A DNA stretch of 64,000 nucleotides. Source: Gaiella occulta (GTDB lineage Bacteria > Actinomycetota > Thermoleophilia > Gaiellales > Gaiellaceae). The translations under genes and the position numbers were made by a program. Location of the stretch: NCBI RefSeq assembly GCF_003351045.1, contig NZ_QQZY01000001.1, forward strand, positions 248,001 to 312,000, in the 5' to 3' direction. This document shows positions 12,259 to 63,738 of the stretch, in pieces; the stretch's first letter is position 1; every line of letters starts with the position of its first letter. The notes below the pieces were generated by a model, which searched no databases, was not told the DNA's origin, and saw only the letters and a program-made list of their open reading frames with translations.

Positions 12259-12891
12259 ATGATCGAGCAACACGAGGGAGCGAGGGCGCTCGACGACGAG
12301 ACGGTGGAGCGCGTCGTCGCCTTCCACGGGCATATGTGCCCGGGGCTCGCCATGGGAATCCAGGCATCGCTGATCGCGCTGCGCGAGATCGGAGCGCACG
12401 CGATGGACGAAGAGGTCGTGGCCGCCGTCGAGACCGACATGTGCGGCGTGGACGCGATCCAGTTCCTCACCGGGTGCACGTTCGGAAAGGGCAACCTCGT
12501 CCACCGGGACTACGGCAAGAACGCGTACACGTTCTGGCGGCGCTCCGACGGCAAGGCCATTCGCATCTCGGGGCGACCGGCGGCGTGGGGGCGCGACCCG
12601 GAGCACGAGGACCTGTTCAAGAAGGTGCGTCTCGGGGCAGCGTCCGACGACGAGCGCGAGCGGTTCCAGCAGCTCCACGTCGCCCGTGCGCGGGCGATCC
12701 TCGAGACGCCGCCCGAGGAGCTCTTCGAATGGCGCGAGGTGCGGGGCGCCCCGCCGCGGCGGGCGCGCATCCACTCGTCGGTCGTGTGCGCCGACTGCGG
12801 CGAGGGGACGATGGAAATCCGGATCCGCCGCTTCCAGGGTCGTGAGCTCTGCCCGGAATGCTTCGAGGAGGCGCTCGCGAGCGGCCTCTGA
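12259..12891 (+). CDS. FmdE-like protein with C-terminal zinc ribbon
   Basis: A 210-residue protein. The N-terminal FmdE domain has the signature VVAFHGHMCPGLAMG plus DMCGVDAIQFLTGCTFGKGNL, whose Cys/His residues bind metal. The C-terminal ribbon has C-x2-C...C-x2-C (CADCGEG...CPEC). A very strong ribosome-binding site, AAAGGAGG, lies 8 bases before the ATG. FmdE was named from formylmethanofuran dehydrogenase operons, but relatives occur widely beside metal transporters and molybdo- or nickel-enzymes, with no settled biochemistry. Its position after a nickel/peptide ABC operon and before the hydrogenase island suggests metal handling; that is inference. Confidence 0.82.
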   Translation: MIEQHEGARALDDETVERVVAFHGHMCPGLAMGIQASLIALREIGAHAMDEEVVAAVETDMCGVDAIQFLTGCTFGKGNLVHRDYGKNAYTFWRRSDGKAIRISGRPAAWGRDPEHEDLFKKVRLGAASDDERERFQQLHVARARAILETPPEELFEWREVRGAPPRRARIHSSVVCADCGEGTMEIRIRRFQGRELCPECFEEALASGL

Positions 12892-13530: not shown

Positions 13531-13917
13531 TCAGCGCCGGGGGATCGCGGCCAGCTCGTCCGGCGCGAGGCTCGCGAACTCGCCGTAGCGGCTCAGGAAG
13601 AGACCGATCACCCCACCAGACCGGGCCATCCCCTTCGCTGCGTCGTGGAGCTCCTCCATCCCGTGCCGGGTCAGCTCGTAAATCCGGCGATCAGGGCCTT
13701 CGCTGGAGCGCTCCCAGCTCGAGTGGACAAGCCCTTCACGCTCGAGCGCTCGCAACGTCCGGTACAGCCCACCCGGATCTGCCCTCGTGAAGCCGAGCAC
13801 CCCGAGGCGCTCCAGGAGCTCGTACCCGTGGGACGGCTGCTCGCGGAGCAGGAGCAGGACGCACGGGCGCAGGAAGCTCCGCGGCACCTGTGCGATCGAG
13901 GTCTCAGTGCGAGACAT
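13531..13917 (-). CDS. PadR-family transcriptional regulator
   Basis: A 128-residue winged-helix protein with the PadR pattern: LRPCVLLLLREQPSHGYELLERL, DPGGLYRTLRALEREGLV and RRIYELTRHG. A C-terminal helix provides dimerisation. It overlaps the preceding regulator gene by 14 bases and is part of the CooC-like ATPase operon. The ligand is unknown. It could control the hydrogenase island or the ABC operon; no site is demonstrated. Confidence 0.85.
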   Translation of the reverse strand: MSRTETSIAQVPRSFLRPCVLLLLREQPSHGYELLERLGVLGFTRADPGGLYRTLRALEREGLVHSSWERSSEGPDRRIYELTRHGMEELHDAAKGMARSGGVIGLFLSRYGEFASLAPDELAAIPRR

Positions 13918-14269
13918 GTGCTCCGGCCCGCTCTTCGAGGCAGCGTGCGGCAGCCTCGGGCGAGTCGTGACACCAGCAATCGTCGTCGCACTCGCCGTGG
14001 GTGGGGCGCGTCAGGTCGGCGAACTCCTCCGCGAAGCTGCGCTTGCCCGTCTCGATGCCCTTGTCGCTCAGTGCGTAGCGGCCGTCGGCAACACTGAGGT
14101 AGCCCTCGGTCGCGAATCGCTCGAGGTACGGGCCCAGCGTCCCGGATGGAACGGCCAGGAACCGCGCGAGCTCTAACGTCGATGACGATTCGGCGAGACC
14201 TTCCGCACGCATCCAGTACATGGCCTGCAGCACCTCCTCGCGCACCCGCAGGACGTCAAGCTCGCTCAT
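13904..14269 (-). CDS. Winged-helix protein with C-terminal Cys/His metal motif
   Basis: A 121-residue protein. The N-terminal ~75 residues form a DtxR/Rrf2-like winged helix (EEVLQAMYWMRAEG...STLELARFLAVPSGTLGPYLERFATEGYLSV...YALSDKG). The tail has an H-x2-C-x3-C-x-C-H cluster (HGECDDDCWCH) followed by another Cys and a terminal H-x2-H. Such a tail looks like a metal or Fe-S sensor site. It overlaps the CooC-like gene by 14 bases, so both are translationally coupled. A nickel- or redox-responsive regulator is inferred; I do not recognise a named family. Confidence 0.7.
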   Translation of the reverse strand: MSELDVLRVREEVLQAMYWMRAEGLAESSSTLELARFLAVPSGTLGPYLERFATEGYLSVADGRYALSDKGIETGKRSFAEEFADLTRPTHGECDDDCWCHDSPEAAARCLEERAGAHVSH

Positions 14270-15032
14270 CGGCGTTCCTTCCCCCGAGGAGCCGGTCGGC
14301 GAGCTGCCCGATCGCGACGACGGCGTTCGACTCGGGGGCGAAGTCGATCGGAGCGGCGCTCGCCCGCTCGGCGCCCGGCATAGCCTCGTCGAACGGCACC
14401 ACTCCGGCCAGCTCGAGCTCGTGCTGCTCCGCGAACTCGCGGACGGCCTCGAGATCGTGGTCGTCGCGGATCTTGTTCGCCACGAGCGCGACTCGGGGCA
14501 GGCCGAGGTCGCGGCCGAGCGCCGCCATGCGGCGCCCCGTCTCGAGCGACTTGAAGTAGGGCTCGACGACGGCGAACATCACGTCGGCGTGGCGGGCCGT
14601 GCCGCGAGACAGGTGCTCCGGGGAGGCCTCCGTGTCGAGGATGCAGACGTCCTCGGCGCTCTCCGACGCCGCTCCGATAACGCTACGCACGGTAGCGTGC
14701 ATGCCGCACAGTCAGCCGGTGCCCGCATGCTGCGGATGCGCCATCACGAGCAGCGTCACCCCGTCCGGGCCGGTCGCCGAGTGGGTCGCGCAGATCTCGT
14801 CCAGTGTCTTCTTGAGGCGATCCTCGCCCGCAGTCCGGTCGAGGAGGTCGCGCGTCAAGGTCGGCAGGCTCCCCATCTGCTCGGCCGGGATCCCGAGCGT
14901 CAGAGCGAGATTCGGGTTCGAGTCGCCGTCGATGGCGAGCACGGTGTGGCCGTGCCGGGCGAGGTGCCGGCACATCGTCCCGGAGATCGAGGTCTTTCCC
15001 GACCCGCCCTTCCCTGCGATCACCAGCTTCAT
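14256..15032 (-). CDS. cooC: CooC-like nickel-insertion ATPase, selenoprotein with in-frame TGA (UxC)
   Basis: A 258-residue P-loop ATPase of the MinD/CooC class. The deviant Walker A is GKGGSGKTS (residues 7-15) and the switch motif is AIDGDSNPN; ILDTEASPEHLSRG and the C-terminal VANKI are also present. The frame contains a TGA at 14714-14712 (codon 107) between HAGTG and LCGMHA. CooC proteins have a conserved CxC here (Cys112/Cys114 in Carboxydothermus CooC1) that binds Ni/Zn at the dimer interface. Here it reads U-L-C. Coding similarity continues unbroken on both sides in the same frame, and a 7-bp perfect stem with loop CGTGC follows 13 bases downstream. With selA, selB and tRNA-Sec in this window, selenocysteine is the best reading. 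The alternative is a nonsense mutation. Confidence 0.82.
14680..14698 (-). promoter_or_regulatory. Candidate bacterial SECIS hairpin of the CooC-like gene
   Basis: Read on the minus strand, ACGCTAC-CGTGC-GTAGCGT forms a perfect 7-bp stem with a 5-base loop. The loop starts 21 bases after the TGA, within the spacing bacterial SelB needs, and has a G at loop position 2, as bSECIS elements usually do. The loop core CGTG(C) recurs in the other two candidate selenoprotein genes of this window. Confidence 0.7.
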
Positions 15033-15210: not shown

Positions 15211-16467
15211 CTAGCGAGCGCGCTGCCTGCGGGCCGGCCGTCCCGACCCCACCCTGCCGAGCAACCGTGCGAGCGCAGCGACCGCGCATGGGTCGTGTCC
15301 GGCAACGTAGTCGTCGACGAACGGGAGCGCGGTCTGCATCCCGATCGCGAGCGGTTGCCGTCCGAGGTCCGACGGTCTCGGGTTGAGCCAGACGATCCGG
15401 CGGCACTGGAGCCGAAGCGCCGCGAGCTCGTCGGCGAGCAGATCCGGGTCGCCACGGTCCCATCCGTCGCTCGCGATCACGACGATCGCGCCGCGGGCGA
15501 GACCGAGCCCGCCGTAGCGGCGGCGGAGGTCCTCGAGGGCGTGACCGATACGTGTTCCCCCGGACCAGTCCGGCACGGCCGCCTTGGCATCCTCGAGTGC
15601 CCGGGCGACGTCGTGGCCCGTGAGCGAGCCCGTCAGGCGCGTGAGTCTCGTCGCGAAGACGAACGCCTCGGTCTTGCCGCCGGCACGGACGGCGCCCTGG
15701 AGCGACGTGAGCAGGGCGCGCGAATAGCGCTCCATCGAACCCGAGACGTCGCAGAGGAACAAGAGGCGCCGTGGCTTCGGCCTGCGCGTGACGTACACGG
15801 GGCGTAGTGGCTCTCCTTCGCACGCCAGAGAGCGCTTGACCGTGCTGCGGATGTCGAGGCGGCCGCGGCGGAGATCGCCGGACGAGAGCCGTCGCGAGAG
15901 ACGCTTGGGAGTCGCGTGGCGAAGCTCCTCGGCGAGGCGGCGAGCGGCTGCGACCTCGTCGTCGCCGACCTCGAGTGGGACGTGCTCCGTCAGCACCTCG
16001 TTCGGGCTGTAGGCCGCGAGAAGACCGCGGCGGGCCTCCCGGCCTTGCTCCTCGCTCGGCGCCGTCGGGATCTCGAGCGGGCTCGCCGTCCGTGCGCCTT
16101 CCGCGTCGAGCAGCTGCGTGTGGCCTGGATCGGAGCGGAACTGGGGCAGCGATGACCCGCCGTGCTGCGGGCCCGCGACCCGGGGGTCGGTCTCGCCGTG
16201 CTCCGCGACCAGATCACCAGGGCTGTCGAGACGGGCGCCCGCCCAGAACCGCTCGAACAGCCGCTCGAACGCCGGGAGCTGCTCGCGGTTGCGGACGAAT
16301 GTCGCGCGAGTGGCCCAGTAGACGTGCTCGCGTCGCCGGAGGTCGAGCTCTGCGAGCGCGCGGGCGAGCACGAGCTCCTGGTCGACGCCGGAGGCGATCC
16401 CTTCCTCGCGAAGCGCCCGGCCGAACGCGACGACCGCGTCGGCGACGACCGCGTCAGCCGGGCGCAT
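15211..16467 (-). CDS. CoxE-like protein with von Willebrand factor A domain
   Basis: A 418-residue protein. The C-terminal VWA domain begins at LLFLCDVSGSMERYSRALL, a MIDAS DxSxS site; GGTRIGHAL and ASDGWDRGD complete the metal site. The N-terminal half is the variable CoxE-type helical region. It overlaps the AAA+ gene that precedes it by 14 bases. CoxD (MoxR-like AAA+) and CoxE (VWA) work together in maturing the Mo/Cu site of aerobic CO dehydrogenase; no CO dehydrogenase gene is in this window. Here the pair sits within hydrogenase genes and probably acts on that enzyme or a partner (inference). Confidence 0.87.
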   Translation of the reverse strand: MRPADAVVADAVVAFGRALREEGIASGVDQELVLARALAELDLRRREHVYWATRATFVRNREQLPAFERLFERFWAGARLDSPGDLVAEHGETDPRVAGPQHGGSSLPQFRSDPGHTQLLDAEGARTASPLEIPTAPSEEQGREARRGLLAAYSPNEVLTEHVPLEVGDDEVAAARRLAEELRHATPKRLSRRLSSGDLRRGRLDIRSTVKRSLACEGEPLRPVYVTRRPKPRRLLFLCDVSGSMERYSRALLTSLQGAVRAGGKTEAFVFATRLTRLTGSLTGHDVARALEDAKAAVPDWSGGTRIGHALEDLRRRYGGLGLARGAIVVIASDGWDRGDPDLLADELAALRLQCRRIVWLNPRPSDLGRQPLAIGMQTALPFVDDYVAGHDPCAVAALARLLGRVGSGRPARRQRAR

Positions 16468-17317
16468 CGCGCACGCGTGCGACGCGCTCTTCGAGGCCGT
16501 CCGCGCGGAGACGCTCGATGTCGTCTCGGGACTTGAGCAGCGCGCCGAGCGTCCGGTCCGTGGCCACGGTGTCGATCTCCTCGCGTCCGAGAGCAGCGAG
16601 CGACTGGGCCCAGTCGAGGGTCTCGCCGACGCCGGGAAGGCGATAGAGGTCGAGCCAGCGCAGCTCGTGGACGAAGCCGCACACCTGGCGCACGAGCGAC
16701 TCGGGCAGCTCGGGGAGGCGGACGCGCAGGATCTGCGTCTCGCGCTCGAGATCCGGGTGGTCGATCCAGTGGTAGAGGCAACGTCGCTTGAGCGCCTCGT
16801 GGAGGTCGCGGGTGCGGTTCGACGTGATGATCACGGCCGGCGGCCGCTCGGCGCTGACGACACCGATCTCGGGGATGGTGACCTGGAAGTCCGAGAGAAA
16901 CTCGAGCAGGAATGCCTCGAACTCGTCGTCTGCACGGTCGAGCTCGTCGATCAGCAGCACGCCTCCCGACCCATCGAGCGCCTCGAGCAGCGGCCGCCGG
17001 AGCAGGAACTCCTCGGCGTAGAGCTGGCCGCTGCCGCCGGCCCTGAGATGGAGAAGCTGCCGCGGGTAGTCCCAGTCGTAGAGAGCGTGGTGGACGTCGA
17101 TGCCCTCGTAGCACTGGAGACGGTGCAAGGGCGCACCCGCTGCGGCGGCGAGCGCCTTCGCGAGCTCGGTCTTGCCCACGCCGGGCTCGCCTTCGACGAG
17201 CAGGGGCTTGCCGAGCCGGAGCGCGAGGAAGAGAACCGTCGCGAGGCCCTCGTCGACGAGGTAGTGCTGGGCGCGCAGGGCGTCCTCGAGCGCTTCGATC
17301 GACTCAAAGCCACGCAT
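16454..17317 (-). CDS. CoxD-like MoxR-family AAA+ ATPase
   Basis: A 287-residue MoxR ATPase. Walker A is EGEPGVGKTE (about residues 42-51), Walker B is GGVLLIDELDRADDEFEAF, sensor 1 is ITSNRTRDLHEALKRR, and an arginine-finger region follows. The CYEGIDVHHALYDWDYPRQLL segment is typical of the CoxD branch of MoxR proteins. It overlaps the protease gene upstream by 14 bases and the VWA gene downstream by 14. It likely forms a chaperone pair with the VWA protein. Confidence 0.88.
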   Translation of the reverse strand: MRGFESIEALEDALRAQHYLVDEGLATVLFLALRLGKPLLVEGEPGVGKTELAKALAAAAGAPLHRLQCYEGIDVHHALYDWDYPRQLLHLRAGGSGQLYAEEFLLRRPLLEALDGSGGVLLIDELDRADDEFEAFLLEFLSDFQVTIPEIGVVSAERPPAVIITSNRTRDLHEALKRRCLYHWIDHPDLERETQILRVRLPELPESLVRQVCGFVHELRWLDLYRLPGVGETLDWAQSLAALGREEIDTVATDRTLGALLKSRDDIERLRADGLEERVARVRDAPG

Positions 17318-17756
17318 CGACGGTCTCCCGTACCCTGCGGGCCGCGAGATCGACAGCGCGTTCGACCGCCGGGGAGAGGCCTTCGCCGAGCTCGTCGACC
17401 TCGGCCGGCTGGCAGCCGACGATCACGACCCGCCGGGGCAGGATCCCGAGCCCCTTCGCCATCGAGAGCACACGCCGCGGGTTCGCGAGGTGGATGTCCG
17501 AGACGTGCTCGGGCTCGCCGATCTCGGGCTCGATCACGAAGACCGTCCCGGGCTCGGCACCCTGATCGACGGCATCGACGATCACGAGGCCCTCGTACCC
17601 ACCGAGAAGCTCCTGGACGAGGGCGATCCCGCCGATCCCCGTCTCGACGACGTCGGCGCCCTCCGGGAGCGGGCCGAGTCGCGAGACGACGACCGGCCCG
17701 AAACCGTCGTCGCGCCTGAGGATGTTCCCGACCCCGGCGACGAGGACACGTCTCAA
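17304..17756 (-). CDS. [NiFe]-hydrogenase maturation protease (HyaD/HupD family)
   Basis: About 150 residues with the peptidase M52 signature: LVAGVGNILRRDDGFGP (nickel-sensing Asp after GN), then VVETGIGGIALVQELLGGYEGLVIVDAVD, and a downstream HLANPRRV histidine. This enzyme would clip the 26-residue tail after DPCMPCTTH of the large subunit once nickel is in place. The start is a TTG at 17756 that overlaps the stop of the NifU-Rieske gene (TTGA); no closer ATG or GTG exists. Confidence 0.88.
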   Translation of the reverse strand: MRRVLVAGVGNILRRDDGFGPVVVSRLGPLPEGADVVETGIGGIALVQELLGGYEGLVIVDAVDQGAEPGTVFVIEPEIGEPEHVSDIHLANPRRVLSMAKGLGILPRRVVIVGCQPAEVDELGEGLSPAVERAVDLAARRVRETVDAWL

Positions 17757-18523
17757 GCGACGTTCACTGCGACGCGGACAACGCCGTCCTCGATCGCGAC
17801 CGGCACGACCGCGAGCCCGGGCTCGCTCTGGTCGTCCACGCGCTTGCCGGTACGCGCGTCGAACGCGCAGTTGTGCCACGGGCAGACGAGAACGGCTTCC
17901 GTGAGGCGACCCCCTTCGAGCGGGAGGCCGTCGACCGGACAACCGTTGCGAAATGCGTAGATCTCGCCCTGAACGTTGGCCAGCAGGATCGCCAGGCCGT
18001 CCAGCGACAGCGGCCGGAGCTCTCCCGGAGCGAGATCCTCCGCGGCACCGGCCTCGACGAAGACCGGCCGTCGCAGCGACGCTATCTGGAGCAGCTGTCC
18101 GTCGGGCTCGTGCGCGACGATCTCCCGGAACGACGGATAGTGCTCGCGGAGAACCTCCTCGACCCCGCGTCTGAGCGTCATCGCGGAGCCGGAGCACCCG
18201 TGACAGGCCCCGGTGAGCCGCAGGTGGACGACGCCGTCCTCCACGTCGAGCAACTCCAGTTCGCCGTCGTGTGAGTGGATATACGGCCGCACGAGGTCGA
18301 GGGCCTCTTCCACCTGGAGCCGCTCGTCGAGTGCGGCGAGGTCGTACATGGCGAGCAGCGCGCGGGCAACCGGGTGCTCCAGGTCGCCCGCGACGATCAG
18401 CTCGAGCCCAGGTCGATGGATTGCGTCGATCAGCTGCAGCAGGTGGAGCGCCCGCTCGTCACCCTCGCGCTCGAGGGTTTCGACGAGGGTGTCGAGCTCG
18501 GCTATGGCGCAGTCGAAGTCCAT
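17753..18523 (-). CDS. NifU C-terminal-domain/Rieske-like fusion protein
   Basis: A 256-residue protein. Residues ~1-75 form a helical region. Residues ~78-130 are a NifU-type domain with the Fe-S scaffold motif GACHGCSGSAMTL. The C-terminal ~100 residues form a Rieske-type fold with CPWHNCAFD as second ligand pair. The first ligand box reads NGCPVDGLPLEGG, where the usual C-x-H has Val at the His position, so one canonical [2Fe-2S] ligand is absent. Fusions of this type accompany actinobacterial group-1h hydrogenases. A role in Fe-S supply or electron transfer from the small subunit is inferred. Confidence 0.82.
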   Translation of the reverse strand: MDFDCAIAELDTLVETLEREGDERALHLLQLIDAIHRPGLELIVAGDLEHPVARALLAMYDLAALDERLQVEEALDLVRPYIHSHDGELELLDVEDGVVHLRLTGACHGCSGSAMTLRRGVEEVLREHYPSFREIVAHEPDGQLLQIASLRRPVFVEAGAAEDLAPGELRPLSLDGLAILLANVQGEIYAFRNGCPVDGLPLEGGRLTEAVLVCPWHNCAFDARTGKRVDDQSEPGLAVVPVAIEDGVVRVAVNVA

Positions 18524-18978
18524 ACGGCCTCCACGATCTCCGGCAGCTTCGCCTCCAGCTCTGCGCTGAACCCGTCGCCCCAGCCCTCCGGCTCGACCGG
18601 CTCGACCTCGACCACCCGGACGTCGTCGGGGAGGCCGCCGAGCACCCCGCAGACGACCAGGAGGTTGTCCAACGAGATCACGCCCGTCACGGCCTCGCCG
18701 ACCCGTGCCTGGATCTCGGTCGTGTCGGGGAGGACGCCGTTCCAGCGATAGCGCTCGATGGTGCCCGGGGCACGACCACGGCGGACCGACGCCACGAGGA
18801 CGAGACGGTCGTACGGCGGCCGTTCGTGCAGGTTGTGCGAGAGCGCGACGGGGCCGTACGAGAGATCCTCGATCTCGATGCCGTCCCGGGTCTCCGGCGC
18901 GAGTGTGTCCGCGAGGTAGGGCCCGAGGGACTCGTCCCGCAGAAATCGATATCCCACACCTCCGACGAGTATGCGCAT
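18502..18978 (-). CDS. Hydrogenase maturation protease-like protein (second paralogue)
   Basis: A 158-residue protein beginning MRILVGGVGYRFLRDESLGP, which matches the M52 protease N-terminal strand and loop. It continues with IEDLSYGPVAL...YDRLVLVASV and a central ISLDNLLVVCGVLGG strand. The usual GN-x5-D nickel-sensing pattern is altered (GY instead of GN), so it may be a non-proteolytic homologue. It directly follows the large-subunit gene and overlaps the NifU-Rieske gene by 22 bases. Confidence 0.72.
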   Translation of the reverse strand: MRILVGGVGYRFLRDESLGPYLADTLAPETRDGIEIEDLSYGPVALSHNLHERPPYDRLVLVASVRRGRAPGTIERYRWNGVLPDTTEIQARVGEAVTGVISLDNLLVVCGVLGGLPDDVRVVEVEPVEPEGWGDGFSAELEAKLPEIVEAVWTSTAP

Positions 18979-19015: not shown

Positions 19016-20935
19016 CTAGTGGTCGTGGCCGTCGTCGTCCACCCCGCAGGCGCAGGTGACCACGTCTCTCGTGATCACCCTGCCCCCTGTGTTGATGTGT
19101 GTCGTGCAGGGCATGCACGGGTCGAAGCTGCGGATAGCCCGGAGGATGTCGATGCCCTTGTAGTCCTCCGGCTTCTCGTAGTTCTCGAGGAGCGGCGTCG
19201 CGCTGACGGCCTCCTCGTAGGGTCCGGGGTTGCCCCACGGGTCCTTGGGCGAGGCCATCCAGGTCGACGGCGTCAGGATCTGGTAGTTCTCGATCACGCC
19301 GCCGTCGATGACCGCGTGGTGGGTGAGGTAGCCGCGCCCGGCGCCCCAGAAGCCCGCTCCGATGCGGAAGTCCTTCGGAACGGTGTGCTTGACGGACGTT
19401 GCGGTCTGGTTCTTGCGCATCAGGTCGAGACCGATCAGGACGTTCTCGTAGGCGATCAGAGCCGTGTAGAGGATCGCGTACGCTCGCCCGCGGTTACGCT
19501 CGAAGGCGCCCCATTTCTCCGGCACGTGCCATTCGCGGACGCCTCCGGGGAGCGCGGCCTTCGGCACCGCGAGCTTGAGGCTGTGCCCCGTCGGCTCGAT
19601 GAAGGTGGTGCGCGTGAAGTCCGGCGCGAGCGCGGTCGCCCACAGGCGCGAATACGCCCCGGTCTCCATAGCCAGTCGATCCCAGCGGGGGGCGGTCGAC
19701 CACGAGTACTTCTCTTTCCAGTTCGTGCCACCGGGCTTCGGAATCGTCTGCTTGTTCCAGGGGTGGTACGGCGAGAGAGGGTTGCCGGCCGGGTCGGTCT
19801 TGAACTGGTAGGCGCCGTTGCCCTTGCCTTCGTCGGCCCAGTCCTCGTAGAAAGAGTGTTCGACGAACTCCTCGACGCCGATGTTGAGCGCTTGCATGCT
19901 CGTCGTCACGAGCTCACCGTCGACGATCACGGCCGGGGGTGCCCACCGGTCGCGCGCCCAGGTGTCGACGTTCTCGTACGTTCCGTCGTAGGAGTACGGA
20001 TCGTCCCACTGACCGGGCTCGATCAGGTTCTTCGGCCGCTTGCCGATGTCCGCGTAGCGGGGGTTCGCGTCGTAGAAGAACTCGATCAGGTCGTCCCAGA
20101 TCGCGACGACCTTCTGTCCGTAGTCGAAGAACTTGACGATCCGCAGCATCACCTCGTTCATGTCGGACGTGTCGATCGTGGCGCTGACGCCACCGGGAAC
20201 GATGGTCTGCGGGTGCGGGTACTTGCCGCCGATGATGACATACGCCTCGCGGGCGACGCGAGTCATGTGGAGCGCCTCCGCGTAGAGCTTGCCGGTGAGC
20301 GGCGTCATCGCGGTCATGATCTCGCCGATCGTCGCGAAGCCGTGCGTCTCCTTGCCGGCCGCCGACGTGCGCTCGGCGCGATCCCAGAGCTCCGGGTTGG
20401 TCTCGCGGATCGCCGGTTCCGACATGTCCGGCCCGGCGAGGAGGAACAGATGCAACGGGTGGTCGTACAGGTACTCGACCGAGAGCAGGAGGTTGCGCGC
20501 AACGACCCCCATCGGTGGAGGGTGGATGCCGAAGGCCATTTCGAGCGCGAGCGCCGAGGCGGTGGCGTGCACCCCGCCGCAGACGCCGCAGGCGCGGCTC
20601 GAGATGAAGATCGCATCGCGGGGGTCGCGACCCTTGAGGATGATCTCGTACCCTCGGAAGAGGGTCGCCATCGAATCCGTTTCGAGCACCTCGCGGTTCT
20701 CGAGGTCGACGATCGCGTGGAACGCGAGGGCGCCGGCCACGCGCGTGACGGGGTCGAAGTCGACCTGGCGGATGTGCCCGTTCCGGGCCAGCAGCTTCTG
20801 CAGCTTTTCCGCTCCTTCGGGACTCCCGAGCGGCGCTAGCTCGGCTACCTGGTAGCCGTACGGGTCGGCCAGGCCGTCCCTGAGACGCGCGTTGCCGTGC
20901 TCGTCGAACTCGATCGGGAGGTTCTTGAAGCACAT
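19016..20935 (-). CDS. hhyL: [NiFe]-hydrogenase large subunit, group 1h-like
   Basis: A 639-residue catalytic subunit. The L1 nickel-binding motif RACGVCGG is at residues 114-121 and the L2 motif DPCMPCTTH at 605-613. All four nickel ligands are Cys, so this is not a NiFeSe enzyme. The 26-residue tail after His613 is what the maturation protease would remove. The tail's CACG and the long mid-region insertions (EFFYDANPRYADIGKRP, HPWNKQTIPKPGGTNW) agree with the actinobacterial high-affinity type used to oxidise trace H2. The ATG overlaps the small-subunit stop (TGATG). Confidence 0.95.
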   Translation of the reverse strand: MCFKNLPIEFDEHGNARLRDGLADPYGYQVAELAPLGSPEGAEKLQKLLARNGHIRQVDFDPVTRVAGALAFHAIVDLENREVLETDSMATLFRGYEIILKGRDPRDAIFISSRACGVCGGVHATASALALEMAFGIHPPPMGVVARNLLLSVEYLYDHPLHLFLLAGPDMSEPAIRETNPELWDRAERTSAAGKETHGFATIGEIMTAMTPLTGKLYAEALHMTRVAREAYVIIGGKYPHPQTIVPGGVSATIDTSDMNEVMLRIVKFFDYGQKVVAIWDDLIEFFYDANPRYADIGKRPKNLIEPGQWDDPYSYDGTYENVDTWARDRWAPPAVIVDGELVTTSMQALNIGVEEFVEHSFYEDWADEGKGNGAYQFKTDPAGNPLSPYHPWNKQTIPKPGGTNWKEKYSWSTAPRWDRLAMETGAYSRLWATALAPDFTRTTFIEPTGHSLKLAVPKAALPGGVREWHVPEKWGAFERNRGRAYAILYTALIAYENVLIGLDLMRKNQTATSVKHTVPKDFRIGAGFWGAGRGYLTHHAVIDGGVIENYQILTPSTWMASPKDPWGNPGPYEEAVSATPLLENYEKPEDYKGIDILRAIRSFDPCMPCTTHINTGGRVITRDVVTCACGVDDDGHDH

Positions 20936-22236
20936 CAGGTTTGCTCCTCGTTCGTGCTGCGGTCGGTCCTCTGGAGGACGTTCATCGTCTCGGGCACGGG
21001 CAGCTTGCCGGCGCGCTTCGCCTGGTCGACCGAGCCGCTGTACTGGAGACGCTTGTAGAAGAACCCGACCGCCCTCGCGGCCGTCGTCGGCTTCGCGTGC
21101 TCGAGCGCCCATCCGGACGGGACCTCGCCCGTCCTGTCCCAGAGCGACTCGCGGTTGGCGGAGCGCATCGACATCCGCCTCAGGCGGCGGATCCCCGCGC
21201 CGTAGGTGCGGGCGATCCCACCTGAGATCAGCGACCCGGGTGGCGACTTGTAGAACGGCGAGAACTTGTCGGGGAACCCCGGCATCGTGCAGCCGATGCA
21301 GGGGCCGCCCGCGACCATGCAGCCACCCATGTGGTTGATCGCCCCCCGCTCGGTGATGTTGCACTGCACGATTGGCCCCCAGCAGCCCAGGTCGACGAGG
21401 CATTCCTGATCGCCGTAGTCGTCGGCGAACACGCCTTCCTCGTAGTACCCGGCGCGGACGCAATGCCGGTGCACCGTCTCTCCGAAGAGCCAGGCGGGGC
21501 GACCGAGCTCGTCGAACTCCGGGAGGGGGCCGACGCCCTGGAGGAAGAGGAGTACCGCCGCGACCGTCTCGGTGAAGTTGTCTCCGATGGGGGAGCAGCC
21601 GGGAACGTTGATGACCGGGACGCCGAGCGCGGAGCGGTAGTCCTTGCCGAGGAAGTCCATCAGGCTCATCGAGCCGGTGACGTTGCCGGCGGCCGCAGGG
21701 ATCCCGCCCCACGTCGCACAGGTTCCGATCGCGATCGCGGCCGCCGCGCCGGGAGCCATCGCCTTCACCCAGTCGGTGACGCGCAGCGGCTGGCCTGGAG
21801 CGCGTGGCGAGGTCAGGGACTCGGGCCAGTCCTCGCCGACCCCGAAACCCGAGAAATAGCCCTCGCGCTCGAACCGCTGGTCGTCGGGGATCGAGCCCTC
21901 GAGCACGATCACGTACGGCGCTCCCAACGTGCCGTCGACGGCCTTCGCGAACGGGCGGATGAACCCGTGCCCGGCGTCGACCGAGAGCACCGGGTGGTGG
22001 AGCACGACGCGAGGCAACCCGGGGATCGACCCCATGAGCAGCTCCTCGACCGAAGGCGACGTCGCGCCCGTGACGGCGACGGAGCAGCCGTCACAGCTCA
22101 TCCCGGCGATCCAGAAGACGTGGAGCAGCGAGAGGGGCCCGGTCTCCGTTCCGCCGAGGCCACCGACGCCCATGGCGGCGTCCTCGCCAAAGACCTTGCC
22201 CGCGTGTGGAGCCTTCTGGATCGCACCGACGCTCAC
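20935..22236 (-). CDS. hhyS: [NiFe]-hydrogenase small subunit, group 1h-like
   Basis: A 433-residue electron-transfer subunit. The proximal cluster motif GMSCDGCSVAVTG is at about residues 45-57, and further ligands include GTCATWGGIPAA, NVPGCSPIGDNF and the distal/medial Cys pairs (CLVDLGCWGPIVQCN, GGPCIGCTMPGFPDKF). There is no Tat signal, so the enzyme stays cytosolic or on the inner membrane face. I chose the GTG at 22236 because GGAGGA lies 7 bases upstream; the ATG 28 codons earlier gives a low-complexity Arg/Tyr leader. It is the first gene of the minus-strand hydrogenase run. Confidence 0.94.
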   Translation of the reverse strand: MSVGAIQKAPHAGKVFGEDAAMGVGGLGGTETGPLSLLHVFWIAGMSCDGCSVAVTGATSPSVEELLMGSIPGLPRVVLHHPVLSVDAGHGFIRPFAKAVDGTLGAPYVIVLEGSIPDDQRFEREGYFSGFGVGEDWPESLTSPRAPGQPLRVTDWVKAMAPGAAAAIAIGTCATWGGIPAAAGNVTGSMSLMDFLGKDYRSALGVPVINVPGCSPIGDNFTETVAAVLLFLQGVGPLPEFDELGRPAWLFGETVHRHCVRAGYYEEGVFADDYGDQECLVDLGCWGPIVQCNITERGAINHMGGCMVAGGPCIGCTMPGFPDKFSPFYKSPPGSLISGGIARTYGAGIRRLRRMSMRSANRESLWDRTGEVPSGWALEHAKPTTAARAVGFFYKRLQYSGSVDQAKRAGKLPVPETMNVLQRTDRSTNEEQT

Positions 22237-23598: not shown

Positions 23599-23877
23599 AT
23601 GTGCCTCGGGATTCCCGGCAGGATCGTCGAGATCGTCGACACGCAGCATCACATCGCCAAGGTCGACGTCTCGGGTGTCCGTCGGAACGTCAACGTCGGT
23701 CTCCTCGTGAACGGTCCCGACGCCGTCGCTGTCGGCGACTGGGTGCTGATCCACGTCGGCTTCGCGATGTCGAAGATCGACGAGGAGGAAGCGCAGTCGA
23801 CACGGGAGTTCCTCGAACGGCTCGGTGATCCCTACAGGCAGGAGCTCGCCGAGCTCGAAGCGAGCGGCATCGAATGA
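23599..23877 (+). CDS. hypC: Hydrogenase assembly chaperone HypC
   Basis: A 92-residue chaperone. The diagnostic N-terminus MCLGIPGRIVEI holds Cys2, which with HypD carries the Fe(CN)2CO unit to the large subunit. The VGDWVLIHVGFAMSKIDEEEA segment is the typical OB-like end of HypC, and about 20 extra residues follow. It overlaps the SIS-HypC gene by ATGA. Confidence 0.93.
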   Translation: MCLGIPGRIVEIVDTQHHIAKVDVSGVRRNVNVGLLVNGPDAVAVGDWVLIHVGFAMSKIDEEEAQSTREFLERLGDPYRQELAELEASGIE

Positions 23878-24587
23878 GAGCGCGGCTCGAGGCGCTCGTC
23901 AGCGAGAGGGAGCGGGTTCTCCGACAGTTCCTCGAAAGCGAGCAACGCCGCATCGCCCTGTCCTGTCACTCGCTCGCCCGCGCGTTCTCGCGCGGAGCGA
24001 CCCTGTACGCGTTCGGGACAGGCGCGGCGGCAACCGATGCCGCCCACGTCGCCGTGGAGTTCATGCATCCGGTGATCGTCGGAAAGAGAGCGCTCCCCGC
24101 CGTCGCTCTGACGAACGACCCGACCGGGCAGTCCACCACGCTTCGCCTCGCGCGCGCCTCCGACATCGCGCTCGGGATCGTCCACGGTGGTGAGGATCCG
24201 GCCGTCACGTCGTTCCTCGAAGACGCGACGCGTCAGGGTCTCCAGACGATCGCGCTCGTCGGTCCCGGCAGCGCGGTGCGTGCCGACGAGCTCTTCGTCG
24301 TACCGAGCGAAGACCCGCGCGTCGTCCAGGAGGTGCAGGAGACGGTCTATCACGTGCTCTGGGAGCTCGTCCACGTCTTCTTCGAGCAGCCAGGACTTCT
24401 CGCCGACACGTGCGTCACCTGCGGCGACGTCGCGGTGGAAGCACGGGTGGTCGAGGTCGACCGGCTGACGGCGATCGTCGAACGGGGTGGGCAGCGCGAG
24501 GAGGTCGCCATCGAGCTCCTCGAGGCTGTCGGGGTCGGGGATCGTGTTCTGTGCCACGCCGGAGTCGCGCTGGAGAAGCTTGCGTGA
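23874..24587 (+). CDS. SIS-domain/HypC-domain fusion protein
   Basis: A 237-residue protein. Residues ~30-175 are a sugar-isomerase (SIS, GmhA-like) domain: LYAFGTGAAATDAAHVAVEFMHPV and IALGIVHGGEDPAVTSFLEDATRQGLQTIALVG. Residues ~180-237 resemble HypC/HupF (CVTCGDVAVEARVVEVD...VGVGDRVLCHAGVALEKL), but the Cys is internal rather than at position 2. SIS-HypC fusions are found in actinobacterial hydrogenase clusters; their role is not established. It is coupled to both hypC and the next SIS gene by overlaps. Confidence 0.83.
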   Translation: MRARLEALVSERERVLRQFLESEQRRIALSCHSLARAFSRGATLYAFGTGAAATDAAHVAVEFMHPVIVGKRALPAVALTNDPTGQSTTLRLARASDIALGIVHGGEDPAVTSFLEDATRQGLQTIALVGPGSAVRADELFVVPSEDPRVVQEVQETVYHVLWELVHVFFEQPGLLADTCVTCGDVAVEARVVEVDRLTAIVERGGQREEVAIELLEAVGVGDRVLCHAGVALEKLA

Positions 24588-25192
24588 CCGATTTCCTCTA
24601 CCCGTTCCTCGGTGGCAGCGAGCGCGGCCTCGAGGCCACGCTCGAGCACGTCGCGGCGTCGACGCTCGACAAGGGCAATGATGTCGCCGAGTTGCGCCGC
24701 GGCATCGACCTCGAGGCAGTAACCGCATGCGGCCTTGCGATCCGGGATCGCCTCCACCGCGGTGGACGGCTGCTCGCCTTCGGCAACGGAGGCTCGTCGA
24801 CGGACGCCCAGGATGCGGCAGGCGACTTCCTCGCCGCCGGCTGGGGCGCGATCGCGCTCACGAACGACGCCGCGACGATCACCGGGGTAGCCAACGACGT
24901 CGGGTACGACAACGTCTTCTCTCGTCAGCTGATCGCTCTCGCTCGAGCCGACGATGTCGCACTTGCGTTCTCGACGAGCGGCTCCTCCCGGAACGTGGTG
25001 GCCGGTCTCGAGGAGGCCCACCGGCGACTCCTCCTGACCTGCGCCGTCACCGGGTACGGCGGCGGCACGCTCCGCGAGCTTCCGTGGCTCGACCACCTCT
25101 TCGTCGCAGCGGGCGACTATATCCCCCGGCTCCAGGAGGCACACGCAACCGTCGTGCACCTCCTTCTCGAGGTCGTCGGCGAGCGCTCGTGA
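24584..25192 (+). CDS. SIS-domain protein (GmhA/phosphoheptose isomerase-like)
   Basis: A 202-residue SIS protein with GRLLAFGNGGSSTDAQDAAGDFL and DDVALAFSTSGSSRNVVAGLEEA, the two phosphosugar-binding loops of GmhA-type isomerases. The GTG start overlaps the preceding stop (GTGA), and its own stop overlaps hypD's GTG. It stands among hyp genes rather than heptose genes. It probably acts with the SIS-HypC fusion in hydrogenase assembly or its regulation rather than in LPS synthesis (inference). Confidence 0.82.
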   Translation: MTDFLYPFLGGSERGLEATLEHVAASTLDKGNDVAELRRGIDLEAVTACGLAIRDRLHRGGRLLAFGNGGSSTDAQDAAGDFLAAGWGAIALTNDAATITGVANDVGYDNVFSRQLIALARADDVALAFSTSGSSRNVVAGLEEAHRRLLLTCAVTGYGGGTLRELPWLDHLFVAAGDYIPRLQEAHATVVHLLLEVVGERS

Positions 25193-26310
25193 GATACGTC
25201 GACGAGTACAGGTCGGGGAAGATCGCGCTGGATCTCTCGCAGCGCATCGAATCGGTGCTCGAGCCGGGTCGGAAGTACAAGCTGATGGAGGTGTGCGGAG
25301 GCCATACGCACACGATCTACAAGCACGGGATCGAGAACCTGCTTCCGCCCGCCGTCGACCTGATCCACGGCCCCGGCTGCCCGGTCTGCGTGATCCCGAT
25401 GGGCCGCATCGACGATGCGATCGCGATCGCCGAACGGCCGAACGTGATCTTCACGACCTTCGGCGACATGATGCGCGTACCGGGTGGAAACGGCTCGCTC
25501 CTCGAGGCCAAGGCCCGCGGAGCGGACGTGCGGATGGTGTACTCGCCGCTCGACGCTCTTCGCATCGCACGCGAGAATCCCGAGCGGGAGACGGTCTTCT
25601 TCGCGATCGGGTTCGAGACGACGACTCCGTCGACGGCGCTCACACTGCTGCGTGCCCGCAGCGAGGGGATCCGCAACTTCTTCGTCTTCGCGAATCACGT
25701 CACGATCATCCCGGCGATCCGGGCGATCCTCGGCTCCCCGGATCTCCGTCTGGACGGCTTCATCGGGCCCGGCCACGTCTCGACCGTGATCGGGACGGTG
25801 CCGTACCGCTTCATCGCTGAGAGCTACGGGAAGCCGCTCGTCGTCGCGGGCTTCGAGCCTCTCGACGTGCTCCAGGCGGCCTACATGGTTTTGCTTCAGC
25901 TGGCGGAAGGGCGTTGCGAGGTCGAGAACCAGTACACGCGCGTCGTTCGGGAAGCCGGAAACCCGCGTGCGCTCGAGGCGATCGCCGAGACGATGGAGCT
26001 CCGCACGACGTTCGAATGGCGCGGCCTCGGCTTCATCTCCCAGAGCGCCCTGGCCCTCCGGGTCGAGTTTGCCGACTGGGACGCCGAGCGTCGCTACGAC
26101 GTCCCGGGCGTCCGCGTCGCGGATCCGAAGGCGTGTCAGTGCGGTGAGGTACTGAAGGGCGTGATCAAGCCGTGGGAGTGCAAGGTCTTCGGCACGGCGT
26201 GCACGCCTGAGCGCCCGATCGGGACCTGCATGGTGTCGAGCGAAGGCGCGTGCGCCGCCTACTACAACTACGGGCGGTTCACGCGGCGGCTCGAGACCGT
26301 GGCAACGTGA
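25189..26310 (+). CDS. hypD: Hydrogenase maturation factor HypD
   Basis: A 373-residue Fe-S scaffold protein for the Fe(CN)2CO group. Key motifs: MEVCGGHTHTIYKHG (Cys for iron binding), IHGPGCPVCV, FETTTPSTA, GPGHVSTVIG, and C-terminal cysteines (CQCGEVLKG, CKVFGTAC, CMVSSEGAC) for the [4Fe-4S] cluster. The GTG at 25189 overlaps the SIS stop (GTGA); hypE starts in the same way at the end. Confidence 0.95.
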   Translation: MRYVDEYRSGKIALDLSQRIESVLEPGRKYKLMEVCGGHTHTIYKHGIENLLPPAVDLIHGPGCPVCVIPMGRIDDAIAIAERPNVIFTTFGDMMRVPGGNGSLLEAKARGADVRMVYSPLDALRIARENPERETVFFAIGFETTTPSTALTLLRARSEGIRNFFVFANHVTIIPAIRAILGSPDLRLDGFIGPGHVSTVIGTVPYRFIAESYGKPLVVAGFEPLDVLQAAYMVLLQLAEGRCEVENQYTRVVREAGNPRALEAIAETMELRTTFEWRGLGFISQSALALRVEFADWDAERRYDVPGVRVADPKACQCGEVLKGVIKPWECKVFGTACTPERPIGTCMVSSEGACAAYYNYGRFTRRLETVAT

Positions 26311-27380
26311 CGGGTCGCGAACAGGAGGTACTCGAGGCGATCGAACGGCGACGCCGGCGGCGACCACGCCTGAAGGACGAAGTCGTCACCCTCGCGCACG
26401 GGGCCGGAGGGAAGGCGACGCGCACGCTCATCGAGGCGCTCTTCCTCGAGGAGTTCGGCAACCCGCGGCTGGCCCCGCTCGCCGATGCCGCGCTGTTCGA
26501 CGTCGCTGGAGCGCGGTTCGCCTTCACGACCGACTCGTACGTCGTCAAGCCGCTCTTCTTCCCCGGCGGGGACATCGGCGAGCTCGCGGTCAACGGCACG
26601 GTCAACGATCTCGCGGTGGCAGGCGCCCGACCGCTTTTCCTCACCGCGGGATTCATCGTCGAGGAAGGGTTTCCAACGGCCGATCTCCGCCGCGTGGCTG
26701 CTTCCGTCGGCAGGGCGGCGCGGGCGGCGGGCGTTGAGGTCGTCGCGGGCGACACGAAGGTCGTCGAGCGCGGGAAGGGTGACGGGGTCTATATCAACAC
26801 CTCCGGAATCGGCGTCCTCGAGCACGAGCACGACCTGTCGCCCGCGAGCGTCAGACCGGGCGACAAGGTGCTCGTGTCGGGCACCCTCGGTGATCACGGA
26901 ATCGCTGTGATGGTGGCCCGCGGCAGCCTCGAGCTCGAGGTGGATCTCGATAGCGACACGGCGCCGTTGACGGAGCTCGTCCACGGCCTTCTGTCGGCGA
27001 CGCCCGGGGTGCGTTGCCTACGCGACTTGACGCGCGGCGGCCTGGCCACTGCGCTGAACGAGATCGCCGATGCCGCGAACGTCTCCATCGTGATCGACGA
27101 GGCCGCGTTGCCGATTCGCCCCGAGGTCAACGGCGCCTGCGAGATTCTCGGGATCGATCCTCTCTACGTCGCGAACGAGGGGAAGCTCGTCGCAATCGTG
27201 GCGCCGGAGGCCCTCGCGGCCGCGTACTCGGCGCTCGGGTCGTCGCCGCTCGGAATCGACACCGAGATCGTCGGCGAGGTGCGGGCGGATGCGGAAGGGA
27301 TGGTGTTCCTGGACACGGCGTTCGGTGGACGGCGTGTCGTCGACGTCCTCGTCGGCGATCCTCTCCCGCGGATCTGCTGA
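26307..27380 (+). CDS. hypE: Hydrogenase maturation factor HypE
   Basis: A 357-residue PurM/SelD-fold enzyme that dehydrates carbamoyl-thiol to thiocyanate. The invariant C-terminal PRIC carries the reactive Cys. The N-terminal HGAGGKATRTLIEALF and DSYVVKPLFFPGGDIGELAVNGTVNDLA are classic HypE. The long Arg-rich leader before LKDEVVTLAHG is unusual but begins at a GTG overlapping the hypD stop. It is not SelD: the SelD N-terminal Cys/Sec loop is missing. The gene ends one base from the convergent hypF. Confidence 0.95.
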   Translation: MTGREQEVLEAIERRRRRRPRLKDEVVTLAHGAGGKATRTLIEALFLEEFGNPRLAPLADAALFDVAGARFAFTTDSYVVKPLFFPGGDIGELAVNGTVNDLAVAGARPLFLTAGFIVEEGFPTADLRRVAASVGRAARAAGVEVVAGDTKVVERGKGDGVYINTSGIGVLEHEHDLSPASVRPGDKVLVSGTLGDHGIAVMVARGSLELEVDLDSDTAPLTELVHGLLSATPGVRCLRDLTRGGLATALNEIADAANVSIVIDEAALPIRPEVNGACEILGIDPLYVANEGKLVAIVAPEALAAAYSALGSSPLGIDTEIVGEVRADAEGMVFLDTAFGGRRVVDVLVGDPLPRIC

Positions 27381-27381
27381 G

Positions 27382-29547
27382 TCACCCCGTGCTCTGTCGC
27401 GTGGTGCGTGCGCGCGCGGGAAGCGTCGCCGCGGCGACGACGGCCTGTCCGTAGCTGATCCCCGCGTCGTTCGGCGGTACGCGCGCGTGGGTGAGCACCC
27501 GGAAGCCGAGCGACTCGAGCCGCCGTGCCGTCGATTCGAGCAGGCGGAGATTCTGGAACGTGCCGCCCGTCAGCGCCACGGTGCGGAGTTCGGCCGACTC
27601 GGCGCATGCGGTCGCGGCGGCGGCGGCGATCGTCTCGTGGAAGGCTGCGGCGATCTCCGGGCGCGGTCGGCGCGCCGCGAGATCGTCGTAGACGTGACGG
27701 ACGAGCGCAGGCCCGTCGCCGAAGACCCACGGGTAGGGAGGCGCGGCGGTCGTCCCCGCGAGCCGCTCGAGCTCGATCGCCGCCTGGCCCTCGTAGGTCA
27801 CCACCTCCCGGACGCCGAGCAGCGCGGCGACCGCGTCGAAGAGCCTCCCCATCCCGGACGAGAGCGGGGCGTTGACCTTCAGGCTTTCGCGCACGAGCCG
27901 CCAGCGTGGGTAGGGAACGGGCAGGGCTGCGGCCTCGAGGTAGGACGCGGCCATCCGCCACGGCTCCCGGATCGCTGCTTCTCCTCCGGGCAGCGGCACC
28001 GGCTCGAGGTGCGCCAGCCGCTCGAACGTCACGAGGTCGCACCGCAGCAGCTCGCCACCCCAGAGCGTCCCGTCCGTGCCGTACCCGGTGCCGTCGAAGA
28101 CGAGCGCGAGGGCAGGGCCTCGCTCACCGTGCTCGCCGAGGCATGCCGCGGCGTGGGCATGGTGGTGCTGGATGCCGACCGTCTCGAGATCCTGGTCGAG
28201 AGCCCACTTCGTCGAGAGGTACTCGGGGTGGAGATCGTGCGCGATCCGCTCCGGCACCACGCCGAGCATGGAGGTGTAGAGGTCGAGGTCGGTGAGGAAG
28301 GCGCGGTAGGCGAGCTCGCTGTCGAGGTCGCCGAGGTGCGGCGACATGAACGCGTCGGCTCCGCGGGCGACGCAGAAGGTGCTCTTCAGCTCGGCTCCCA
28401 CGGCGATCAGCGGGCGCGCCGTCGCCACGGGGAGCGGCAGGGCGCTCGGGGTGTACCCACGAGAGCGGCGGATCGGGAAGGCGACCCGCACGACCGAGTC
28501 CTCGCAGCGGCGGTGGATGGGGCGATCGTGCGCGAGGAAGGCGTCCGCGATCCCGGCGAGACGCTCGCGCGCTTCGTCGTCGGCGACGGCGATCGGCTCG
28601 TCCGACCGGTTGCCGCTCGTCATCACGAGCGGGCGGCCGACGTCGGCGATGAGGAGATGGTGGAGGGGGGTGTAGGGGAGCATCACGCCGAGCTCCGGCA
28701 CCCCCGGCGCCACCGACTCCGCGATCGCGGCATGCGGGCGTCGCGGCAAGAGCACGATCGGCCGCTCGCGCGAGCGGAGCAGCTCGGCTGCGGCCGCCGT
28801 CAGCTCGACGATCGCCTCCGGCGCCGCCGTCATCAGCGCGAACGGCTTTTCCTCCCGATGCTTCCGCGCCCGCAGCCGTGCCACCGTCTCCTCGTTCGCC
28901 GCGTCGCAGGCGAGGTGGTAGCCGCCGAGGCCCTTGACGGCAAGGATCGCGCCGTCGCGCAGCAGCCCGACCGCTTCCTCGAGCGGAAGCGAGAGCCGGG
29001 GGCCGCACACCGGGCAGGCGATCGGCTCGGCGTGGAAGCGGCGGTCGGTCGGGTCCTCGTACTCGCGCAGGCAGTCGTCGCAGAGCGGGAATCCCGCCAT
29101 CGTCGTATTCGGCCGGTCGTAGGGGACGCGGAGGACGATCGTGAACCGCGGCCCGCACCGGGTGCAGTTGACGAAGGGGTACCGATGGCGCCGGTCCGTA
29201 GGGTCGAACAGCTCACGGAGGCAGTCGTCGCAGGTCGCGACGTCCGGTGGGATCAGCGCGCTCCTCCCGTGTGCCGTGCTCGCGAGGATCGAGAACGCGG
29301 CCTCTCCGCGGGTCGGGGCGTGCGTGACCTCGAGCGAGTCGATCCGCGCGAGCGGCGGCGCGTCCACTCGCAGGCGAGCGAGGAACCCGTCGAGCGCGGC
29401 GGCCTCTCCCTCCACCTCGATCACGACGCCGGCTCCGTCGTTCAGGACGAAGCCGGCCAGCCCCTCCCGCCGGGCGAGGCCGTAGACGAACGGCCGGAAC
29501 CCGACACCCTGGACGACGCCTCGCACCCGGATCCGCCGACGTGTCAC
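27382..29547 (-). CDS. hypF: Carbamoyltransferase HypF
   Basis: A 721-residue multidomain enzyme supplying carbamoyl groups for cyanide ligands. In order: acylphosphatase domain (RGVVQGVGFRPFVYGLA), two zinc-finger-like CxxC pairs (CDDCLRELF...CTRCGPRF; CDDCLREYE...CPVCGPR), YrdC-like domain (KGLGGYHLACDA, TSGNRSDEPI), and Kae1-like carbamoyltransferase domain (HHHAHAAACLGEH, VFDGTGYGTDGTLWGGE). The GTG start lacks a strong ribosome-binding site. Convergent to hypE and separately transcribed. Confidence 0.95.
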   Translation of the reverse strand: MTRRRIRVRGVVQGVGFRPFVYGLARREGLAGFVLNDGAGVVIEVEGEAAALDGFLARLRVDAPPLARIDSLEVTHAPTRGEAAFSILASTAHGRSALIPPDVATCDDCLRELFDPTDRRHRYPFVNCTRCGPRFTIVLRVPYDRPNTTMAGFPLCDDCLREYEDPTDRRFHAEPIACPVCGPRLSLPLEEAVGLLRDGAILAVKGLGGYHLACDAANEETVARLRARKHREEKPFALMTAAPEAIVELTAAAAELLRSRERPIVLLPRRPHAAIAESVAPGVPELGVMLPYTPLHHLLIADVGRPLVMTSGNRSDEPIAVADDEARERLAGIADAFLAHDRPIHRRCEDSVVRVAFPIRRSRGYTPSALPLPVATARPLIAVGAELKSTFCVARGADAFMSPHLGDLDSELAYRAFLTDLDLYTSMLGVVPERIAHDLHPEYLSTKWALDQDLETVGIQHHHAHAAACLGEHGERGPALALVFDGTGYGTDGTLWGGELLRCDLVTFERLAHLEPVPLPGGEAAIREPWRMAASYLEAAALPVPYPRWRLVRESLKVNAPLSSGMGRLFDAVAALLGVREVVTYEGQAAIELERLAGTTAAPPYPWVFGDGPALVRHVYDDLAARRPRPEIAAAFHETIAAAAATACAESAELRTVALTGGTFQNLRLLESTARRLESLGFRVLTHARVPPNDAGISYGQAVVAAATLPARARTTRQSTG

Positions 29548-60320: not shown

Positions 60321-60351
60321 GCCTTGTGACAAACTGTCACAAGGCTCATGC
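60315..60351. repeat. Perfect 17-bp inverted repeat between selA and selB
   Basis: GCATGAGCCTTGTGACA-AAC-TGTCACAAGGCTCATGC: 17 paired bases and a 3-base centre, covering the selA stop. No T-run follows, and selB starts 18 bases later. It contains TTGTGACAA, which recurs as TTGTCACAA at 63071. It could control selB expression by attenuation or regulator binding. Confidence 0.85.
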
Positions 60352-60369
60352 GGGCGCGAGGGGTGGGGC

Positions 60370-63645: not shown

Positions 63646-63738
63646 GGAGCGGCACGGGCCCGGTGGCCCAGCAGGTCTTCAAAACCTGTGCGGTGTGGCA
63701 ACCCCACGCTCGGTCGGTTCGACTCCGGCGCCGCTCCG
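63646..63738 (+). tRNA. selC: tRNA-Sec (TCA)
   Basis: An 8-bp acceptor GGAGCGGC/GCCGCTCC, one longer than normal tRNAs; an extended D-stem (GGGCC...GGCCC); anticodon stem-loop CAGGT-CTTCAAA-ACCTG with anticodon TCA; a long variable arm (GCGGTGTGG-CAA-CCCCACGC); T-loop TTCGACT. These features together identify a bacterial selenocysteine tRNA. Confidence 0.96.

Follow-up and report, generated by a model that had tools for sequence, protein, structure and literature searches.

A CooC-like ATPase gene with an in-frame TGA at its metal-binding motif in Gaiella occulta: a predicted selenoprotein and candidate nickel inserter for an adjacent [NiFe]-hydrogenase

The window, a stretch of 64,000 nucleotides of the Gaiella occulta genome, carries on its minus strand a gene for a CooC-like ATPase. 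Upstream of it on the same strand lie genes for a [NiFe]-hydrogenase, a maturation protease, a NifU-Rieske fusion, a MoxR-type ATPase and a CoxE-like protein. Genes for the maturation factors HypC-F are nearby, and genes for selenocysteine (Sec) decoding are found elsewhere in the window:

12259..12891, plus strand: FmdE-domain protein with a dksA/traR-type zinc finger, a member of the neighbourhood in several relatives
13531..13917, minus strand: PadR-family regulator, conserved next gene
13904..14269, minus strand: 121-aa protein with a weak DtxR-type winged helix (seen in a relative)
14256..15032, minus strand: CooC-like P-loop ATPase, predicted selenoprotein of 258 aa with Sec at 107
14680..14698, minus strand: predicted bacterial-type SECIS hairpin ACGCUAC-CGUGC-GUAGCGU, apical loop 20 nt after the UGA
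14712..14714, minus strand: TGA (predicted Sec) codon 107, first position of the UxC motif; TGC or TGT in Cys orthologues
14991..15014, minus strand: deviant Walker A motif GKGGSGKT, residues 7-14
15211..16467, minus strand: CoxE-like VWA protein
16454..17317, minus strand: MoxR-type AAA ATPase (MadB-like)
17304..17760, minus strand: putative hydrogenase maturation protease, recognised by inspection of the sequence alone (no family match; start uncertain)
17753..18523, minus strand: NifU-Rieske fusion protein
18502..18978, minus strand: hydrogenase maturation protease (TIGR00072)
19016..20890, minus strand: [NiFe] hydrogenase large subunit, CooC-linked clade
20935..22230, minus strand: [NiFe] hydrogenase small subunit
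23874..24587, plus strand: SIS domain-HypC fusion, with HypC joined to the C-terminus of the SIS domain
25192..26310, plus strand: HypD
26307..27380, plus strand: HypE
27382..29547, minus strand: HypF
59007..60320, plus strand: selA, selenocysteine synthase
60304..62106, plus strand: selB, Sec-specific elongation factor
63646..63738, plus strand: tRNA-Sec, anticodon UCA

The initial annotation had read positions 14256-15032 of the minus strand as one frame interrupted by a TGA, and this proved correct: the only internal stop is the TGA at codon 107, in the context HAGTG-U-LCGMHATVR. As had also been anticipated, a standard gene caller breaks the gene in two, the open reading frames listed under table 11 being of 106 and 148 aa, so that the gene is likely to be misannotated in soil actinobacterial genomes. 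It is present in a single copy in its own genome. Among 24 relatives recovered by tblastn, 17 carry TGA and seven TGC at exactly the same codon, and the orthologue loci added from Thermoleophilia genomes show TGA, TGC or TGT there and nothing else; the search for Cys or TGA that had been proposed for this codon thus recovered only these. All rows of our alignment A2 have Cys or Sec at position 107. Decay of the downstream half, which would have spoken against a functional gene, was looked for through dN/dS. Purifying selection on the TGA forms was found to be equal on the two sides, with medians of 0.213 before and 0.232 after the TGA (171 pairs). A frameshifted copy of the orthologue occurs in one genome (G298).

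Downstream of the TGA lies a hairpin that fits the published bSECIS model, which calls for a loop of 3-9 nt with a G in its first two positions, a stem of at least 4 bp, a distance of 16-37 nt from the UGA and an energy of -7.5 kcal/mol or lower (PMC13188914). The model is satisfied by all 20 distinct TGA forms and by none of the ten Cys forms. Every TGA form shares the strand ACGCUAC, a short loop with a G in the first two positions and the strand GUAGCGU, with the loop 20-21 nt after the UGA. The codons beneath the hairpin, GCT113, CGT116 and AGC117, do not vary among the 20 TGA forms, while elsewhere in the same genes they make up only 6.5, 9.5 and 11% of the codons for their amino acids; the Cys forms use different codons at these positions. 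Chance alone satisfies the model in about 10% of synonymous recodings of the window gene, so a single sequence would be unconvincing by itself, and comparison of folding energy with shuffled sequences did not separate the hairpin (z about +1). The case for a SECIS element accordingly rests on the contrast between TGA and Cys forms and on the fixation of rare codons.

The organism has the means to read such a codon, with selA, selB, selD (outside the window, at G000:C1:188930) and tRNA-Sec all present in its genome. Across the 16 TGA-form genomes surveyed, nine give a tRNA-Sec match of at least 62 bits; in the other seven the tRNA matches have E values of 1e-6 to 1e-10, and other tRNAs are not excluded. 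Strong tRNA-Sec matches occur in several Cys-form genomes too, and the presence of tRNA-Sec alone fails to separate Sec from Cys genomes. Together, a codon that alternates only between TGA and Cys, the SECIS hairpin and the selABCD machinery support Sec decoding. UGA 107 would be decoded by SelB and tRNA-Sec through the adjacent downstream hairpin, and we regard Sec incorporation at this codon as near certain, although the selenium in the protein is inferred from comparative sequence and not from protein data. That the TGA might be a true stop, reflecting a pseudogene, two split genes or a sequencing error, is suggested by the two reading frames of the standard caller, but this is hardly tenable given that an identical TGA is found in about 20 distinct sequences drawn from many assemblies, that selection is equal on either side of it, that the hairpin sits on conserved rare codons and that the sole alternatives at the site are Cys codons. 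Nor is a restart conserved, the potential start of a second gene (ATG, codon 111) being a CTN leucine codon in 6/20 TGA forms. Split genes and pseudogene were thus both rejected on conservation and selection evidence. Recoding of TGA throughout the genome was rejected as well: the terminal stop of the ATPase gene is itself TGA, so the reading of UGA must be position-specific.

In the phylogeny, a single clade (support 100/98) unites 21 Sec rows with 13 Cys rows. The Sec label changes four times on the tree as drawn; well-supported branches force just one change. Exchange between predicted Sec and Cys has probably happened more than once among the orthologues. In three of them (L061, L062 and L113) the TGA is kept and the second Cys is replaced by Gly, giving U-x-G. 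One TGA form (L009:646-1425) sits in a metagenome-assembled genome labelled Chloroflexi, by transfer or misbinning.

Kinship with CooC, already proposed from inspection, holds by both sequence and fold. The best solved relative is CooC1 (PDB 3kje, E 6.7e-28), which is also the top PDB match of the AlphaFold model (mean pLDDT 87; low in the block 101-110 that contains the motif). The protein has the deviant Walker A motif and MinD/BioD fold and matches Pfam CbiA; it passed no NCBIfam model, and in that search it gave no match to TIGR00073 (hypB). The CooC-type CxC motif is present as U-x-C, and U-L-C aligns with the C-Y-C of CooC1, which places the TGA at the first Cys of the pair, as the initial annotation had it. 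The metal binding that it ascribed to this site in CooC1 agrees with the literature, in which Cys112 and Cys114 bind Zn/Ni at the dimer interface (PMC6006190). Not all of these proteins retain a strict four-ligand CxC site, as seen in the U-x-G orthologues and in some Cys paralogues with C-x-G. No cooS or other CO dehydrogenase gene was recognised near the ATPase gene in the stretches read, which cover the neighbourhood only.

In a second family of CooC-like paralogues (L083:16391-17104, L112:1032-1745, L086:16470-17177, L111:1411-2124, L110:964-1671), the Cys cluster contains one or two in-frame TGA codons, read as UTUC or CPUC. PG-U-T-U-C-G, with two predicted Sec, is found in G075 and G235, and C-P-U-C in G298 and G306; the Cys forms have PGCxCCG. 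The TGA forms again have a conserved downstream hairpin, whose loop, AGUU, follows the last UGA by about 19 nt. Sec would thus stand at the presumed metal site in two paralogue families.

The hydrogenase genes adjoin the ATPase gene in the window and in many relatives. The large subunit of this linked hydrogenase has as its nearest solved structure the Cupriavidus enzyme 5aa5 (490 bits), against 956 bits for a HypAB-linked enzyme of the same class, and a 100/100 branch splits the CooC-linked from the HypAB-linked large subunits. We take 5aa5 to represent group 1h; clustering with the HypAB-linked Hhy enzymes near it, as would be expected of that group, is not met by the linked hydrogenase. Hydrogenases of groups 1l and 1m have been described from desert soils (PMC9561532); the passages found of the papers on these groups do not describe maturation genes. 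Some loci have second large subunits (L076:5261-6919, L100:6411-8108, L101:9923-11560) that stop close to the last Cys motif, seem to lack a C-terminal extension and in some cases have the motif altered (FNPSMSCATH, FDLCMYCATH); these are possibly non-catalytic. Large subunits with one in-frame TGA were also seen in families f6, f7 and f9 (G094:C12, G004:C1, G030:C14 and others), apparently NiFeSe enzymes outside sulfate reducers and methanogens. At L079:10930-13911, a RuBisCO large subunit and a CbbX-like AAA protein are encoded within about 8 kb of a Sec-CooC gene, as would fit carbon fixation driven by hydrogen in soil.

Maturation of [NiFe]-hydrogenases is described as dependent on HypA and HypB for nickel (PMC12134894), and HypB and CooC share an overall architecture with nucleotide-coupled metal sites (PMC9164220); from these two points comes the hypothesis that the ATPase replaces the pair. 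HypA and HypB were not detected in the G. occulta genome (98% complete), where the single TIGR00073 match is selB, at 20 bits. We surveyed 379 genomes of Thermoleophilia, counting as hydrogenase genomes those with a hydrogenase large subunit among the matches listed for families f1, f5, f10 and f11 at about 114 bits or above. Among the matches listed, HypB and HypA each occur in 27/27 hydrogenase genomes without the ATPase orthologue, against 9/20 (HypB) and 8/20 (HypA) of those with it (Fisher tests, p 9.6e-6 for HypB and 2.4e-6 for HypA, ignoring shared ancestry). HypA is missing as well from the 11 ATPase genomes without HypB (G. occulta and ten others). Nine ATPase genomes have HypB; in seven of them the gene for HypB or HypA shares a contig with a hydrogenase that is not the ATPase-linked one, and placement could not be determined for the remaining two (G330 and G374). 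Most surveyed genomes are incomplete metagenome assemblies, which makes single absences weak.

The best overall explanation, to which we give a probability of roughly 0.6 in the absence of protein, metal-binding or genetic data, is that the ATPase is a Sec-containing nickel inserter. Homology to CooC1 suggests that two protomers would come together through their U107-x-C109 motifs, forming a selenolate/thiolate site at the dimer interface that would bind Ni(II) and release it on an ATP-driven rearrangement. That the selenolate binds nickel and alters its affinity or redox behaviour remains an inference. HypC-F would build the Fe(CN)2CO unit of the adjacent hydrogenase, the proposed client, while the ATPase would replace HypA/HypB at the nickel step, as gene order and the absence of HypA/HypB suggest. 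It may be assisted by the 121-aa neighbour, a possible metal sensor or nickel partner whose Cys-rich tail, HGECDxxCWC...C, is near-invariant and whose gene is almost always directly 3' of the CooC-like gene. Sec could offer a ligand that is softer, more nucleophilic and easier to re-reduce, presumably useful in an aerobic soil organism. Insertion of nickel into this particular hydrogenase is likely but unproven. We hold more tentatively, at slightly less than even odds, that a soil Thermoleophilia hydrogenase clade has dispensed with HypA/HypB and obtains its nickel from a set of CooC-like ATPases that depend on selenium, Sec having entered two paralogue families separately (UxC in one; CxUC or UxUC in the other).

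Because the ATPase gene stands next to two regulators, a regulatory role is possible. The UxC pair might form a selenenylsulfide redox switch in a MinD-like O2 or redox sensor that, with the DtxR-like and PadR proteins, controls hydrogenase expression or maturation and carries no nickel. Conservation of the triple of ATPase, 121-aa winged-helix protein and PadR regulator in most relatives fits such a sensor, as does the fact that known selenoproteins are mostly redox proteins (PMC13188914), but the UxC position is the metal site of CooC1, the U-x-G orthologues cannot form an intramolecular selenenylsulfide at the pair, and the absence of HypA/HypB would leave the nickel step otherwise unassigned; we consider it unlikely, if worth keeping in mind. 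Less probable still is service to another nickel enzyme, for instance a CO dehydrogenase whose gene lies elsewhere, with the adjacency to the hydrogenase incidental: the ATPase clade is sister to CooC proteins, presumably of CODH type, from other families in the class, yet its linkage to one hydrogenase clade is repeated in several families, and it is associated with the absence of HypA/HypB.

If nickel insertion by a Sec-containing CooC-like ATPase is correct, this would be a new selenoprotein family in which Sec is probably a metal-carrier ligand instead of a catalytic residue. It would also mean that the nickel step in [NiFe]-hydrogenase maturation has an alternative to HypA/HypB, one that makes nickel delivery for H2 oxidation selenium-dependent. 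The natural pairs of Sec and Cys orthologues make the value of selenolate against thiolate in a nickel chaperone directly testable. The view that no selenoprotein of the CooC family had been described is upheld by a catalogue from 2026 that covers 119 selenoprotein families or subfamilies and has no CooC or MinD-class member (PMC13188914), and by our search for CooC and selenoprotein together, limited to openly licensed papers, which returned no relevant paper.

Among known systems, the closest is CooC1 of Carboxydothermus hydrogenoformans (PDB 3kje-3kji), the ATPase of CODH nickel insertion, which shares with the window ATPase the fold, the deviant Walker A motif GKGGxGKT and a metal-binding CxC at the equivalent alignment position; the window protein differs in having Sec, as predicted, for the first Cys and in its link to a [NiFe]-hydrogenase cluster. 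Nearest in kind among selenoproteins is the CobW-related (COG0523) NF041053, with UxxC (PMC13188914) in a family whose motif is CxCC (PMC9164220). It too is a P-loop NTPase of a metallochaperone family with a predicted Sec in a Cys motif, but it is a G3E GTPase and not a MinD/BioD-class ATPase, so that motif and family both differ. The HypA/HypB pair performs the step proposed for the window ATPase, but HypB is a GTPase of another family, without Sec. The proposed client, finally, has its nearest solved counterpart among the high-affinity Hhy-type [NiFe]-hydrogenases, but forms a clade separate from the HypAB-linked enzymes of its class.
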